This document shows, in pieces, positions 13,185-18,677 of a stretch of DNA of 37,202 nucleotides. The notes below the pieces were generated by a model. The model was not told the origin of the DNA. It worked only from the letters and a program-made list of their open reading frames with translations, and did not search any database. Numbering within the stretch: position 1 is the first letter of the stretch; each line of letters opens with the position of its first letter. Source of the DNA: an uncultured Saprospiraceae bacterium (GTDB taxonomy: Bacteria > Bacteroidota > Bacteroidia > Chitinophagales > Saprospiraceae); contig CAKZTD010000017.1 of NCBI GenBank assembly GCA_937921595.1, positions 1 through 37,202 on the forward strand. The letters run 5' to 3'. The translations under genes were made by a program, and so were the position numbers.

Positions 13185-13868
13185 CTACCTCGGTAATCTT
13201 CTTGTAATATTATGATTGATCCGCTCAATCACATCGTGAGTGTTGTTTCTCCAGTCTGTAGGGCATCTGCGAGATGCAGACCATAGTGCGTTCCCATCTG
13301 AAGTGTCTACAATTGTTGTTGAGATTCTGACATCACTGGTATTGTTTGAAGGTAAAAACCAAGCGACACGATCAGTTAAGATATAGAGGATATCAGCTGC
13401 TAAGTCAATTCCATAAGATTCGAGATTAGTCAGATAATTCGTTTTATGAACATTTGAACGAACAACGGCATCAACTCCGAGGATTTCGGATAATTCTTTA
13501 GCAGACAATTTTGTGCTTTGTAAGAGGTCAACATCAGCTTCAAAAAGTTTTTGATTAGTCTCTTCATAAGCTTGAACTTTTAAATCAAGATGTCTGAATC
13601 TTTTTTTCTGCATCCGACCTAAAAACTGGTGATACAAGGAAGCCTGAAAAGCTTCACTTTCTGCATATTCAATTTCCAATAGCATCTCATCAGTCAATTC
13701 TTTAGGGATTCTACCCGTAGTGGTTACTTTGTATGGTAAAATGGCTATGGTTTTGTTATCAATTACATTTTCCTTGTAAGAGGTATTTGAATACCTGTTT
13801 GCACAAGAAGTTAATGACATTGCGACGAGGACGATCAGTCCGATATTTTTCATGCTTTTCATTTTCAT
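13185..13868 (-). CDS. Envelope lipoprotein of unknown function
   Basis: 227 residues; three Met codons lie within the first six, so the start could be 13868, 13862 or 13853. The leader ends in SLTSC, giving a lipidated Cys22. The mature part opens with a strand (IAILPYKVTT), has a helical middle with QASLYHQFLGRMQKKRFRHLDLKV, then ELSEILGVDAVVRSNVHK, and near the end VRISTTIVDTSDGNALWSASRR. This alternation, with an ILPY strand, a GVDAVV strand and a LWSAS strand, resembles lipoproteins of the CsgG/TolB-N or GNA1162 type, but the match is only by pattern. It is divergent from the sigma-factor gene at 14185. Confidence 0.75.
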   Translation of the reverse strand: MKMKSMKNIGLIVLVAMSLTSCANRYSNTSYKENVIDNKTIAILPYKVTTTGRIPKELTDEMLLEIEYAESEAFQASLYHQFLGRMQKKRFRHLDLKVQAYEETNQKLFEADVDLLQSTKLSAKELSEILGVDAVVRSNVHKTNYLTNLESYGIDLAADILYILTDRVAWFLPSNNTSDVRISTTIVDTSDGNALWSASRRCPTDWRNNTHDVIERINHNITRRLPR

Positions 13869-14184
13869 TGATTTTGATGTGAATAAATTGTTTCTGTAAT
13901 CATTAGATTTTATGCCAAATGATTTCGTAAGAAGTTGAATTATCTTTTATCGCTACTCTTCGTTGGGAAAATACTCATGTAGCTGAGGTTACACTCCGTT
14001 TTTACCGCCTCAATTAGCAATAAAATCTTAATACTCATTCATTACTAAACCATTTTGGAATAAACTCTTAATTTTAGTACTTTCAAATTTTGAAGTAATT
14101 TTGAAATTACATTGATGTTCATTTGTATGAGAATGAAATCAGTGAGCGGAACTATTTTATACTTTTTTACGAAATCGTTAACAT
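13869..14184. other. Divergent intergenic region, no gene seen
   Basis: 316 bases between the minus-strand lipoprotein and the plus-strand sigma-factor unit; it must hold both promoters. No full TAnnTTTG match with a well-spaced upstream element was found. A weak stem (TGAGG 13984-13988 with CCTCA 14008-14012) and two close ATTTTGAA words around 14087-14108 are the only structure noticed. Confidence 0.5.
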
Positions 14185-14937
14185 TTGGATAAGAATAAGA
14201 ATCATCGTGAAGTTCAACTGTTGTTAAATAAACCTAATGAGTTAGTCGCTCATTATCAGTCGATTATTGAAATAGTAGTCAGTAAATTTGTAAGTAGAGG
14301 TTTTTTTGATTCAGAGGAGAAAAAGGATGTCATTCAAAATATAAACGAAGCCCTATTGGAAAAAAAGATGGGAAGTATTCAAAGAAATTATAATGGTTCC
14401 GTCTTATTATCGACCTATTTTTCGAAAGTGGTTTACAATCACTGCTTAGAAATTGCCAGAAGCAAAAAGAATCAAACCCGTATTGGATCGGAAGATTTAC
14501 TCCAAAATCATTCGGATACTAATATCTCCGTTGAGAATCGACTCATTTTAAAAGACGAAATAAACCGAATTCAAGTGATCTTAAAAGGAGTGATTGGCCT
14601 TTCTTTAAGAGTATTGATTGCTTTGAAATTATACGCCAGAGTACCTCTGACTAAGGCGGATTTTCAAGGAAAGATGATACCTGAGGATGATTTGTTTAAT
14701 GGCTTTAAAAAAGCTTTTTTCCATCCATTTGATGAGCTCAATGATAAAGAGGTCTATGAAAAGGCGATCCCTTTTTTAAATAAAATAACATCCAAAAATA
14801 CAGATGCAGATTCCATGCGAAAATGGGTGAATATGCAAATTGATAAAATTATCCAATTGCAAGACGGTGAACCACCTCGTTCTAAGCATTCTAGAGATAC
14901 CATTCGTATTTTATTGCAAATGTTTTTTGAAAAATAA
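14185..14937 (+). CDS. Divergent sigma-70-family RNA polymerase sigma factor
   Basis: 250 residues starting at TTG 14185: the codon at 14179-14181 is an in-frame TAA and the next in-frame ATG falls inside the conserved core, so TTG is the only reasonable start. Residues about 20-100 resemble sigma region 2 (HYQSIIEIVVSKF, EEKKDVIQNINEALLEKK, LLSTYFSKVVYNHCLEIARSKK). Residues about 120-245 replace a canonical region 4 with a longer helical section (SLRVLIALKLYARVPLT, then SMRKWVNMQIDKIIQLQ). The assignment rests on pattern and context: the next gene has an anti-sigma zinc motif. Such factors occur in Bacteroidota beside CHAT proteins. It is the first gene of a three-gene unit; 84 bases separate it from the next. 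Confidence 0.65.
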   Translation: MDKNKNHREVQLLLNKPNELVAHYQSIIEIVVSKFVSRGFFDSEEKKDVIQNINEALLEKKMGSIQRNYNGSVLLSTYFSKVVYNHCLEIARSKKNQTRIGSEDLLQNHSDTNISVENRLILKDEINRIQVILKGVIGLSLRVLIALKLYARVPLTKADFQGKMIPEDDLFNGFKKAFFHPFDELNDKEVYEKAIPFLNKITSKNTDADSMRKWVNMQIDKIIQLQDGEPPRSKHSRDTIRILLQMFFEK

Positions 14938-15021
14938 TTCCGCCAAACTACTAGAATCAACTATAAGTAATCGAAGAGATTAAATTAAACAGCTTGTTCT
15001 TATAAGCAAATTCGAGAAAAA

Positions 15022-15888
15022 ATGAATTATTTCAGTCCAGAAGGTCACCTTAATGATAGCGGAATCGCTCTTTATGCAGATGCTATTAAGTTAAATAAGA
15101 TTGCTCAATTACCTGACAATTTTAAAAGCCATGTTGATTCCTGTACCATTTGTCAACATCAATTAGTTGACTTTTCAGCGATCATGACCGATGTCGATCA
15201 AAGCGATATAAAACAGCATCCGTATTTTGATAAAAATGAAAGTCAAGCACAGAATCTTGTTTCAGATACCAAGACAAGCAAATCAAGCGGTAGCAAAATT
15301 CGACCTTTATTAATGAGGATTGCAGTAGCTGCGGTATTTGCTGCTTTGACTTTTTTCGCTTATAAGCAATTTAGCGGGAACCAGAAAAATGAGATTGTAA
15401 ATGTTTATCCTGATGCACCACCCAATAGACTAAAGCCTGAAACTAAAGAGCCCAATCCAAAAACCAATGAAACTATAGTAGAAACGCCTAAGCCTTCTGA
15501 AAATAAAACCCCTAAAGCAAACACACCTAAGCAGTCTGAAATAGAAATTCCAGAAGCGAAAAACAATAGAGAATTATTTGCGGCTAATTTTATTCCGAAC
15601 GAAGAGTATGAATCGATACTCGGAAATATTACACGATCTGCTGAATTTAAAGTGACCGGACCAATAAATGATGTGATGTTCAGAGAAGGGAAGAAAATTC
15701 TTTTTAAATGGGAAAATAATATTAAGTTAAATTTCACTATTTTCGATAATGAAGAAGAGGTTGTTTTCGTAAAATCAGTAAATAGTGATCATTTGGATTT
15801 TCAAAATAATCTGAAACCAGGTGTGTATTATTGGAAATTAGAAACAGAAAAAGATCTATTACATCTTGGGAAATTCACGGTTGAATAA
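15022..15888 (+). CDS. Single-pass membrane protein with zinc anti-sigma motif
   Basis: 288 residues, not matched to a named family. H37-x3-C41-x2-C44 (SHVDSCTIC) is the zinc-binding anti-sigma (ZAS) signature. One membrane segment follows at about 96-115 (LLMRIAVAAVFAALTFFAY), preceded by positive charges, so the zinc motif should face the cytoplasm. Residues about 125-185 are a Pro-, Lys- and Thr-rich linker (ETKEPNPKTNE, KPSENKTPKANTPK), and about 190-288 a beta-rich periplasmic domain (FKVTGPINDVMFREGKKILFKW, given in part; GVYYWKLETE). With a sigma factor before it and an exported CHAT protein 8 bases after it, the likely job is membrane control of the sigma factor. The long flexible linker is a natural place for proteolysis. 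Role is inference. Confidence 0.72.
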   Translation: MNYFSPEGHLNDSGIALYADAIKLNKIAQLPDNFKSHVDSCTICQHQLVDFSAIMTDVDQSDIKQHPYFDKNESQAQNLVSDTKTSKSSGSKIRPLLMRIAVAAVFAALTFFAYKQFSGNQKNEIVNVYPDAPPNRLKPETKEPNPKTNETIVETPKPSENKTPKANTPKQSEIEIPEAKNNRELFAANFIPNEEYESILGNITRSAEFKVTGPINDVMFREGKKILFKWENNIKLNFTIFDNEEEVVFVKSVNSDHLDFQNNLKPGVYYWKLETEKDLLHLGKFTVE

Positions 15889-15896
15889 AATAACGT

Positions 15897-18677
15897 ATGA
15901 GAATTCACAGCATTTTAGTTTTTTTGTTTTGTCTTTGTTTTGCTGCCAACAGTAAGGCTCAATTATATTTGCAGTTGGAGAAAGCAGACTCCTTGTCCAT
16001 TGCCAGTGAATATAATGCATCTATTGATTTGATAAATGCAGTGCTCAATGCCAATCCGAGAAATTTCTTGAGATCTCAGGCTTACTACCAGCTGAGTTAT
16101 AATTTTTTGCAATTATACGATCTTGATAAATCTTACGAATATAATCGAAAATCATTAGATATCCGGGATCGTCTTCACTATGAATTTATCGCTGGAAATT
16201 ACATGAGATTTGGTACCATCGAAATGCTCAAAGGTAACCATCAAACAGCGCTGGATTATTTTCAAGAAGCGAAAGATTTGCCACATGAAAGTTTGCAATT
16301 TAGTGGAATATTGGATGGCTATCTTGGGACCATTTATGAGCGACTTGGTAAAGCCGATTTAGCTTTAGAATTTTATAATAATTCCTTAGAAATTTTACGT
16401 TGGGAATTAGACGAAAACCACCCTGATATTTCAGTTGCCTATTACAATTTGGGAAACTACTTTGCTGCCCAAAACAATAACAATAAAGCCTTAGAAAATT
16501 ATGAAAAATCTATCGTCATTGAGCTGAAAACAGCATGGGGAGCAGATGGAAATCCAAGGCTTGCAAAGGCGTATAATGCCTATGGTCTTTTGACTTATGA
16601 GCAAGAGACAGACCTAGTAGAAGCCAAGAAGCTTTTCGAAGGTGCACTCCTTGCCAGTAAAGGTTTTGAACGGCTTACAGCTGCCTCTTTGATTAACCTT
16701 GCTCAGGTTGATTTTTTGAATAGAGATTTTCAAGGGGTAAAAGAAAAACTCAATAAAGCAGCAGCTGAATTAGATCATTCTACAGAAGACGAAGAGCCAC
16801 AATATTTTATTCCACTGATATTAGACAAGAAACTGTATGCCAATCTGTTGCAAGTTAGAACTCAAGTTTATCTTGAAGAATATTTTGAATCAAAAGATAT
16901 CAATGATTTAAAAAATGCTTACGAGTCAAGTACGCTGGCTTTAGATGTTTTTGAAGGGCAACTATTGGATTTTTATAATGATAAAAGCCAGTTAGAATTA
17001 CTTGATAATTCGAAAGATATTTATGAAACAGCAGTATATGTGGCAAGTAAATTACATGAAATAAAAGGAGAAAAGAAGTACTTAGAAGCTGCTTTAAAAT
17101 TCGCTGAAAGAGGGAAGGCAATCGTTTTAAAAAACCAAATGCAACAGTTCTTTGGAATGCTAGAAGCAGACTTGCCAGAGGATTTAAAAACAAAAGAAAA
17201 ACTACTGCGAAATGAGCTTACTTATTTCGAAACTTCTCTAGCAGTTAAGCATGAAGCCGATAACTTTAGAAAGGCTACACTTCGCTTGCATCGAGAGTAT
17301 AAAGACTTATTGAAAAGTATTGAAAAATCAGCCCCTCAATATTATGATTTGCGCTACCAAGTTTCAAATGTTTCTATTAGTTCGATTCAACGTAAATTAG
17401 CATCGGACGAAGTTTTAATTTCTTATTATCAAGGTGCTCAATTGTATTATGTTTTTGCTATTGGAAAAAAAGAAACGCAGATGTATTATGCGTATCAAGA
17501 TGCACCTTTAGAAACAGAATCCAAAATAGATTTTAAAAAGATAAAGGATAAAGCCAGTGGTGGTTTTCCAATGCCTACTCAAACTACAAAATCACCAGAC
17601 ATTCCTAAATTACCAAAACCTGATCCTGGAATTTATACACAGTATACCGAAATGGATTTGAAAGCTGGAGTTGATAAAGGTTTGACTGGAATGATTAAAT
17701 TAAGTAAAGGCCAATTCATTGCTGCCAATCATTCTTTGTACCGTCGTTTGATCGAACCGATAAAACCTATTTTAAAAAAGAAGAAAAAACTAGTGATCAT
17801 TCCTCATGGAGATTTACATTATGTAACATTCGAAACCTTATTAAAAGAAAAGCCAAAGAAGAAAAAAATAAAGTATCATAAGCTTAAATATTTAATCAAG
17901 GATTATTCCGTGAGCTATGAAATGTCTGCTGACTTTTTTGTAGAAAATGTAATTACAAAATCACCAACTATTAATTCAATAGCTGCTTTTGCTCCAGTAT
18001 TTAATCCGGCTGATAAAATTGGTTATACTTTGGAAGCAGAGCAAATGGTTTTTGATTCCAGTAATTGGGTTGGAATGAAAGACAGCAGATCTATGATGCC
18101 AGATAGAAATAGCTTTGCGATGCTTAAATATTCTGAGGATGAAGTAATTGCTATCCTAGAGTTATTCGCCAGTAAAAAAGGAGAAGGAAAAGCATTTATT
18201 AGAAACGATGCAACGGAAGATCAATTCAAAAAAGAAGCAGCTAATTATAATCACCTTCATTTAGCATCGCATAGTTTTGTGAATACACTCAAGCCAAATC
18301 TCTCAGGTGTAGCATTGAGTCCTTCTAAAAATGAAGACGGGATTCTTTTCGCTGGAGAAGTGATGAACCTGGATTTAAGGAATACAGATTTAGTGGTGTT
18401 GAGTAGTTGTGAAAGTGGTGTTGGAGAATTGATTAGGGGAGAAGGATTACTTTCACTGAACCGAGCATTTCGCTTTGCAGGAGTCAGACATAGTATTTCT
18501 ACTCGCTGGAAAATATCGGACAAAGCTTCCGCAAAATTAATGGTTTATTTTTATCAGAAACTGCTCAGTGGTGCCAGCTATGCGGAAGCACTTCGTTTTG
18601 CAAAACTCAAAATGATAAAGAAATCTAATACTGCAATTCCTAAGTTATGGGCTGGATTTACTTTGACTGGCCGATAA
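15897..18677 (+). CDS. Exported TPR-CHAT protein (caspase-like protease family)
   Basis: 926 residues with a signal peptide (MRIHSILVFLFCLCFAANSKAQ). Residues about 25-400 are tetratricopeptide repeats (for example DISVAYYNLGNYFAAQNNNN and LAKAYNAYGLLTYEQ), about 400-500 a helical linker, and about 590-926 a CHAT domain. The CHAT dyad is intact: HLHLASH gives His792 and LSSCESGVGE gives Cys838, followed by GEGLLSLNRAFRFAGVRHSI, STRWKISD and a terminal WAGFTLTGR. CHAT proteins are caspase-fold proteases or scaffolds related to separase. The signal peptide puts it in the periplasm, on the same side as the C-terminal domain of the preceding membrane protein, whose gene ends 8 bases upstream, so that protein is the first candidate substrate. 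Activity is inferred from the dyad. Confidence 0.9.
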   Translation: MRIHSILVFLFCLCFAANSKAQLYLQLEKADSLSIASEYNASIDLINAVLNANPRNFLRSQAYYQLSYNFLQLYDLDKSYEYNRKSLDIRDRLHYEFIAGNYMRFGTIEMLKGNHQTALDYFQEAKDLPHESLQFSGILDGYLGTIYERLGKADLALEFYNNSLEILRWELDENHPDISVAYYNLGNYFAAQNNNNKALENYEKSIVIELKTAWGADGNPRLAKAYNAYGLLTYEQETDLVEAKKLFEGALLASKGFERLTAASLINLAQVDFLNRDFQGVKEKLNKAAAELDHSTEDEEPQYFIPLILDKKLYANLLQVRTQVYLEEYFESKDINDLKNAYESSTLALDVFEGQLLDFYNDKSQLELLDNSKDIYETAVYVASKLHEIKGEKKYLEAALKFAERGKAIVLKNQMQQFFGMLEADLPEDLKTKEKLLRNELTYFETSLAVKHEADNFRKATLRLHREYKDLLKSIEKSAPQYYDLRYQVSNVSISSIQRKLASDEVLISYYQGAQLYYVFAIGKKETQMYYAYQDAPLETESKIDFKKIKDKASGGFPMPTQTTKSPDIPKLPKPDPGIYTQYTEMDLKAGVDKGLTGMIKLSKGQFIAANHSLYRRLIEPIKPILKKKKKLVIIPHGDLHYVTFETLLKEKPKKKKIKYHKLKYLIKDYSVSYEMSADFFVENVITKSPTINSIAAFAPVFNPADKIGYTLEAEQMVFDSSNWVGMKDSRSMMPDRNSFAMLKYSEDEVIAILELFASKKGEGKAFIRNDATEDQFKKEAANYNHLHLASHSFVNTLKPNLSGVALSPSKNEDGILFAGEVMNLDLRNTDLVVLSSCESGVGELIRGEGLLSLNRAFRFAGVRHSISTRWKISDKASAKLMVYFYQKLLSGASYAEALRFAKLKMIKKSNTAIPKLWAGFTLTGR

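Follow-up and report, generated by a model that had tools for sequence, protein, structure and literature searches.

Does a CHAT protein that is encoded directly behind a sigma factor gene and a membrane protein gene act as the protease that frees this sigma factor? The question is raised by a stretch of 37,202 nucleotides (hereafter the window; contig CAKZTD010000017.1 of assembly GCA_937921595.1), which is contig 17 of the 8.04 Mb draft genome of an uncultured Saprospiraceae bacterium. A reading made from the letters alone (the sequence-only reading) had proposed that three genes of the window form one regulatory unit, in which an exported, caspase-like CHAT protease cuts a membrane protein with a zinc-binding anti-sigma (ZAS) motif and releases the sigma factor. 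We find that the three genes are one conserved unit, and that in related pairs the CHAT protein mostly shares a compartment with the outer half of the anti-sigma factor, which suggests that it cuts the anti-sigma factor and thereby switches genes on. Such a protease-gated sigma switch is the best explanation that we can offer for the locus, and we put its probability at about 50%. The genes concerned are these:

14185..14937, + strand: ECF (extracytoplasmic function)-like sigma factor, 250 residues, with a TTG start, region 2 at about residues 4-99, a divergent helical C-terminal part and no clear region 4
15022..15888, + strand: putative ZAS-type anti-sigma factor, 288 residues, from alignments, an AlphaFold2 model, Foldseek and adjacency to the sigma factor gene
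15897..18677, + strand: exported TPR-CHAT protein (TPR, tetratricopeptide repeat), 926 residues, from Pfam, an alignment of the catalytic dyad and hydropathy

Three genes conserved as one unit

The genes stand in a row in the order sigma, anti-sigma, CHAT, with gaps of 84 and 8 bases, as first proposed; the earlier description of the sigma factor gene as divergent holds for its sequence but not for its orientation, since all three genes are on the plus strand. An alignment of the sigma factor, used to scan the species-genome collection, recovered 16 loci, some of them close relatives of each other, of which 15 are labelled Bacteroidota (10 are Saprospiraceae by name) and one is labelled Caldithrix abyssi. 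The anti-sigma gene adjoins the sigma gene in every one of the 16 (a contig end cuts it in L081 and L092), and the CHAT gene comes next in 13 of the 14 loci with enough contig, being incomplete in L079 and L089 and on the opposite strand in L063/L091, which are one locus. The conserved neighbourhood that the sequence-only reading asked for is therefore present.

The same linkage is seen in the 148 genomes around and including that of the window. The window's anti-sigma factor has matches in 13 of these, and the nine that are full-length orthologues are all accompanied by the sigma factor; in another genome (G023) the anti-sigma factor is shortened to 147 residues and the sigma factor was not found. 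In draft genome G026 the genes are on two contigs. C51 carries the sigma gene and a lipoprotein gene, at distances of 33 kb and 71 kb from its ends; C192 carries the anti-sigma and CHAT genes, separated by 3 bases, with 44 kb of sequence upstream of them and the end of the CHAT gene 288 bases before the contig end. Unless one of these contigs is chimeric, the anti-sigma and CHAT genes are the tightest pair of the unit, staying adjacent without the sigma gene. That the three genes are one regulatory unit, as had been claimed, is supported by this pair, by the conserved neighbourhood and the co-occurrence in nine of nine genomes, and by the compartment matching and co-divergence described below.

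The record labelled Caldithrix abyssi HyVt-577 (L092:9884-11070) carries the sigma gene and the start of a ZAS anti-sigma gene in a metagenome-assembled genome labelled as another phylum, and this occurrence reflects either lateral transfer or misbinning.

The domains of the two partner proteins agree with their first description. The anti-sigma factor was expected to be a single-pass membrane protein with H37-x3-C41-x2-C44, a Pro/Lys/Thr linker and an outer beta domain, and the alignments and the AlphaFold2 model (15 sequences, pLDDT 73) bear this out. The zinc motif H-x3-C-x2-C of ZAS anti-sigma factors sits in the N-terminal, cytoplasmic helical domain (modelled helices at 12-55), and H37, C41 and C44 are retained in 14 of 15 aligned orthologues, the exception being L078 (the same locus as L058), which lost all three; Pfam zf-HC2 gives one match only among the 15 members (E 0.07). 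A single transmembrane helix at about 95-118 is followed by the disordered linker (122-185), and the outer part consists of short helices, including 194-199, a loop with Arg205-Ser206 and a beta-sandwich at 210-287 resembling immunoglobulin (Ig) or fibronectin type III (FN3) domains. Foldseek matches the sandwich best to a chain of the amylomaltase MalQ (E 1.3e-5); the next matches, starting at E 4.5e-5, are modules of the FN3-like and Ig-like kinds. Arg205, between helix 194-199 and the first strand at 210, is invariant in all 15 anti-sigma factors.

The CHAT protein likewise has the signal peptide and the intact His792/Cys838 dyad of its first description, and the dyad is invariant in 12 of 12 complete aligned orthologues. 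The domain matches PF12770 (E 3.9e-58), carries the catalytic His and Cys of that family and occupies the C-terminal residues 612-925, with the TPRs (TPR_12, E 4.7e-19) before it; by hydropathy, the protein ends with this domain and has no C-terminal membrane helix. When PDB was searched by sequence for relatives of the CHAT part at E up to 0.1, a single chain was found, 8rot_B, itself a CHAT protein (E 3.8e-5).

The sigma factor has the region 2 fold of the ECF and sigma-70 family. Foldseek with its model gave no significant PDB match, and its C-terminal helical part aligned only partially, in rows spanning 1-233 with a root-mean-square deviation near 20. A search of its own genome with the window's sigma factor matched only itself, with no close paralogue.

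Matched compartments, co-divergence and flanking genes

If the CHAT protein acts on the anti-sigma factor, the two should share a compartment. We searched for the Ig-type domain across the phylum (395 genomes) and the order (298 genomes). Outside family f12 there are eight pairs, each with a transmembrane anti-sigma factor, and the CHAT protein has a signal peptide by rule in seven of them (not in L127), whereas neither feature is present in 28 of the 29 pairs of f12 (the exception is L194). One anti-sigma factor, with the CHAT gene not beside it, was found in family f2. As an internal test, we took 20 regions around strong CHAT matches in three f12 genomes. Two of these genomes, G128 and G604, also carry exported CHAT proteins, and those with an anti-sigma gene nearby (L285, L288 and L301) adjoin transmembrane anti-sigma factors. 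In L293 and L302 the CHAT protein is cytosolic and its partner is an anti-sigma factor of a second, TPR type that lacks the membrane helix; G128 and G604 each have pairs of both kinds. When deduplicated loci with long flanks and complete CHAT proteins are counted (67 pairs from 39 genomes or records), the raw concordance is 59 of 67, with 28 pairs transmembrane and exported and 31 neither (within-genome permutation P = 0.013). Among the mismatches, L061, L085 and L090 score 1.34-1.44 for the membrane helix against a threshold of 1.5 and align with the helices of the others, L088 and L276 are long open reading frames with a helix beyond the scanned range (2.68 at position 131 in L276), and L127, L194 and L294 have CHAT reading frames whose start is apparently overextended.

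The two proteins also diverge together. In f12, the pairwise distances of anti-sigma and CHAT proteins are correlated (r = 0.655, n = 28 pairs; P = 0.0002 by a permutation in which partners were swapped within genomes only, 18 pairs lying in five genomes with more than one pair). The eight units of the window's genome give r = 0.61 (P = 0.017), and without the window's unit the correlation is weak (r = 0.36, P = 0.14). The proposed co-evolution is thus seen for the anti-sigma and CHAT proteins of f12 but only weakly in the genome of the window.

Both types of anti-sigma factor carry a segment resembling L[YF]A..F.P before the C-terminal domain, followed by a basic and a small residue. Among Ig-type proteins, the basic residue is Arg in 23 of 24 with the membrane helix and in 37 of 61 without it; in the TPR type it is Arg or Lys in 29 of 34. 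Some clan CD proteases cleave after basic residues, and this segment is a candidate for the site at which the CHAT protein would cut.

Units of this kind recur within the window's genome, which has 22 CHAT matches (18 strong) and 75 ECF matches. Nine of the 18 strong CHAT matches lie within 5 kb of an ECF match, against an expectation of 9.3% per position (binomial P = 1.2e-5), and the proximity holds when the window's unit is left out (8 of 17, P = 6e-5); in one of these loci, L014, the sigma gene is cut by a contig end. A single-pass anti-sigma factor, with 11-16% identity to that of the window, is also found in L009, L011, L015, L017, L023, L025 and L027; L025 has the same order of sigma, anti-sigma and CHAT genes, and in two paralogous anti-sigma factors that were scanned the outer part is TPR-like. 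A profile of the TPR type finds a match in 179 of 247 genomes of the class, many of the weaker matches being partial. Weak matches of the Ig-type domain search that resembled tails of the type IX secretion system were not counted as anti-sigma factors.

Several variants accompany these units. Exported CHAT paralogues of the same genome (L012, L022, L023, L025 and L027) have a C-terminal membrane helix by hydropathy, which would tether them at the inner membrane. The same helix occurs in the CHAT proteins of L286 and L295 in f12 genomes, where the rule calls no signal peptide, perhaps because of overextended starts, and where no anti-sigma factor was recognised nearby. In L009, L011, L014 and L023, the sigma/anti-sigma pair is separated from the CHAT gene by a gene for a secreted-looking protein, about 300-330 residues long and with a tail that by eye is like those of the type IX system; this protein is a possible substrate or output. 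The order relative G128 (f12, 7.6 Mb) has 45 CHAT matches, most of those examined being without a signal peptide by rule, and several lie beside sigma/anti-sigma pairs. At G000:C265 (26890-27774 and 34251-40445), an ECF sigma factor, a transmembrane anti-sigma factor whose linker is rich in Pro, Lys and Glu, and three CHAT-like matches, all weak, perhaps form a further variant of the unit.

Upstream of the unit there are two further features:

13185..13868, - strand: putative lipoprotein with a lipobox-like ...LTSC, divergently transcribed, an accessory neighbour of the unit
14145..14184, + strand: conserved leader, CGGAA, about 15 nt, a TTTTAA-like element and TTAACA, from an alignment of 11 upstream regions

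The lipoprotein gene is separated from the sigma gene by 316 bases in the window, adjoins it in 12 of the 16 loci and is one gene further off in one more (L088). The family is conserved (11 rows, mean column identity 61%) and has weak Pfam similarity (GNA1162-like, E 0.06). We considered it as a fourth core member and rejected this, because it occurs in 38 of the 148 genomes, 30 of which have no match to the sigma profile; it is an accessory neighbour that is not exclusive to the unit. The elements of the leader, close to the sigma start, are kept in most of the 11 loci, L079 departing from them, and several relatives have a TAnnTTCG box farther upstream (comparing 14100-14184 of the window with the homologous leaders). 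An ECF-type GGAAC...CG promoter pattern was dropped, because it matched the window only among 14 upstream regions.

A proposed protease-gated switch and its alternatives

In the switch that we favour, the ZAS domain would keep the ECF-like sigma factor at the inner membrane in an inactive state. The exported TPR-CHAT protein would reside in the periplasm, where an envelope signal would engage its TPR part, and Cys838 and His792 would then cut the outer half of the anti-sigma factor, most probably near Arg205-Ser206 in the loop that separates the linker from the beta-sandwich. The sigma factor would be freed once general proteases, intramembrane and cytosolic, had completed the degradation; pairs of this kind in a related family would act entirely in the cytoplasm. 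The membrane protein probably restrains the sigma factor, next to whose gene its own lies in 16 of 16 loci and with which it occurs in nine of nine genomes.

A number of observations weigh against this switch. A neighbouring CHAT gene is not obligatory, because L080 has the sigma and anti-sigma genes with a different gene at the CHAT position, and no CHAT gene lies within four genes of a related anti-sigma gene in L065 or of 31 of 60 related anti-sigma genes counted in f12 (in some owing to a contig end). Of the 20 loci of the TPR type that we retrieved from other genomes, 13 likewise lack one at that distance and seven have one. Full-length CHAT proteins of the window's genome on C171, C412, C287, C264 (at a contig end) and C361 have no ECF match within 5 kb. 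The anti-sigma/CHAT pair that stands apart from the sigma gene in G026 comes from a draft assembly, and the co-divergence of linked genes could stem from their duplication as a block. An LYA...R segment as a mark of CHAT-linked anti-sigma factors alone was weakened when it also appeared in TPR-type proteins without a CHAT gene within four genes; its Arg is only moderately conserved in the Ig-type proteins that lack the membrane helix, and when the profiles of the two anti-sigma types were compared with each other, only the transmembrane helix aligned. As to the compartments, we think that all eight raw mismatches are artefacts, which is a post hoc judgement; the hydropathy rule is crude, and relatedness is controlled by the within-genome test only.

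The compartment matching and the co-divergence indicate a partnership and not cleavage as such, and the ectodomain of the anti-sigma factor could serve instead as a docking or inhibitory partner, the real substrate being another envelope protein and the sigma factor being set by the occupancy of the CHAT protein. The secreted-looking protein of L009, L011, L014 and L023 could be such a substrate, and in Craspase Csx30 is recovered in pull-downs whether target RNA is present or not (PMC10028731). We consider this non-proteolytic or reversed arrangement somewhat unlikely, because the known trios of protease, anti-sigma factor and sigma factor (CASP and Calp) are described in parts of the reports on them as working through cleavage of the anti-sigma factor (PMC10028731, PMC11417357). 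The conserved Arg loop beside the ectodomain also suits cleavage.

The CHAT protein might also be output only, a gene of the sigma regulon that is kept near its regulator and acts elsewhere in the envelope. ECF units often adjoin their target genes, the CHAT gene is on the opposite strand in many relatives as well as in L063/L091, and many anti-sigma genes have no CHAT neighbour. Such an explanation does not predict that the CHAT protein and the outer half of the anti-sigma factor change compartment together, nor that their genes stay adjacent without the sigma gene in G026, and we regard it as unlikely. A further possibility is that the first protein does not work as a sigma factor and is instead a sigma-2 domain that has degenerated or taken on another role, for example as a regulator that binds DNA or RNA polymerase. 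A region 4 of the usual kind cannot be recognised: Pfam gave no match to it, TIGR02937 covers only positions 5-135 of 165 and stays under its cut-off, and the C-terminal part is divergent. We nevertheless judge this possibility to be quite improbable.

Comparison with known systems

In the proteolysis of RsiW and RseA, as in the switch proposed here, a membrane anti-sigma factor is first cut outside while the sigma factor is inside. RsiW is first cut by PrsW, and RseA by DegS, whereas the candidate in the window is a CHAT protease encoded next door, which if confirmed would be a new type of first-cut protease for membrane anti-sigma factors.

An association of sigma and CHAT genes is already known from the ECF54 group, whose genomic context includes CHAT proteins, subtilases and carboxypeptidases and for which proteolytic control without an anti-sigma factor was proposed earlier (PMC8999054). 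The family of the window shares the CHAT gene near the sigma gene and differs by the anti-sigma gene beside it in all 16 loci. Judging by titles and the openings of abstracts, we found no description of an exported CHAT protein together with a ZAS anti-sigma factor. CalpL, CalpT and CalpS likewise form a three-part signalling unit of protease, anti-sigma factor and ECF sigma factor, but their protease, according to portions of the report, is of the Lon type with a SAVED sensor and is activated by cyclic oligoadenylate (PMC11417357).

A close parallel is with the type III-E system Craspase (Csx29, Csx30 and CASP-sigma), which combines a TPR-CHAT His-Cys protease, a two-part protein and an ECF-like sigma factor. 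In passages of the report on it, Csx29 cuts Csx30 in a flexible loop of the C-terminal domain that it also recognises, and the cleavage is proposed to lift the inhibition of the sigma factor (PMC10028731). In Craspase the N-terminal part of the two-part protein binds the sigma factor and its C-terminal part is recognised by the protease, and we infer the like for the window's unit, where the TPR-CHAT gene is likewise encoded with a sigma factor and its putative inhibitor. The parallel drawn by the sequence-only reading is therefore sound as logic but not as membership. No CRISPR-like repeats were found in the window (direct repeats of at least 22 bases within 120 bases), and neither a CRISPR array nor Cas7-11 was seen beside the CHAT gene; PADLOC, run on the unit's three proteins and the lipoprotein and not on the other reading frames of the window for cas genes, returned only a generic TPR model, and among the PDB chains found by sequence with the CHAT domain or the anti-sigma profile as query none carried the name Csx29 or Csx30. 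In the window the CHAT protein is exported and the ZAS anti-sigma factor spans the membrane and carries an Ig-like domain, and activation would need a trigger other than RNA. We give even odds to a mechanism of protease-controlled anti-sigma signalling that stands outside the CRISPR system it resembles, and the unit is best read as a CRISPR-free counterpart of the Csx29/Csx30/CASP-sigma logic.

If this holds, caspase-like proteases would be ordinary envelope sensors that gate transcription, beyond CRISPR-triggered cleavage, and many uncharacterised CHAT proteins (22 matches in this genome, 45 in one relative) would have a testable partner and substrate. More tentatively, Bacteroidota and related lineages may hold a large class of CHAT/anti-sigma switches, periplasmic or cytoplasmic and with many copies per genome, in which the CHAT protein would recognise the C-terminal half of the anti-sigma factor and cut it at a conserved basic residue (Arg205-Ser206 here). 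Such a class would be a possible background from which the CASP logic of CRISPR systems was drawn, with Craspase as one CRISPR-recruited branch of it.

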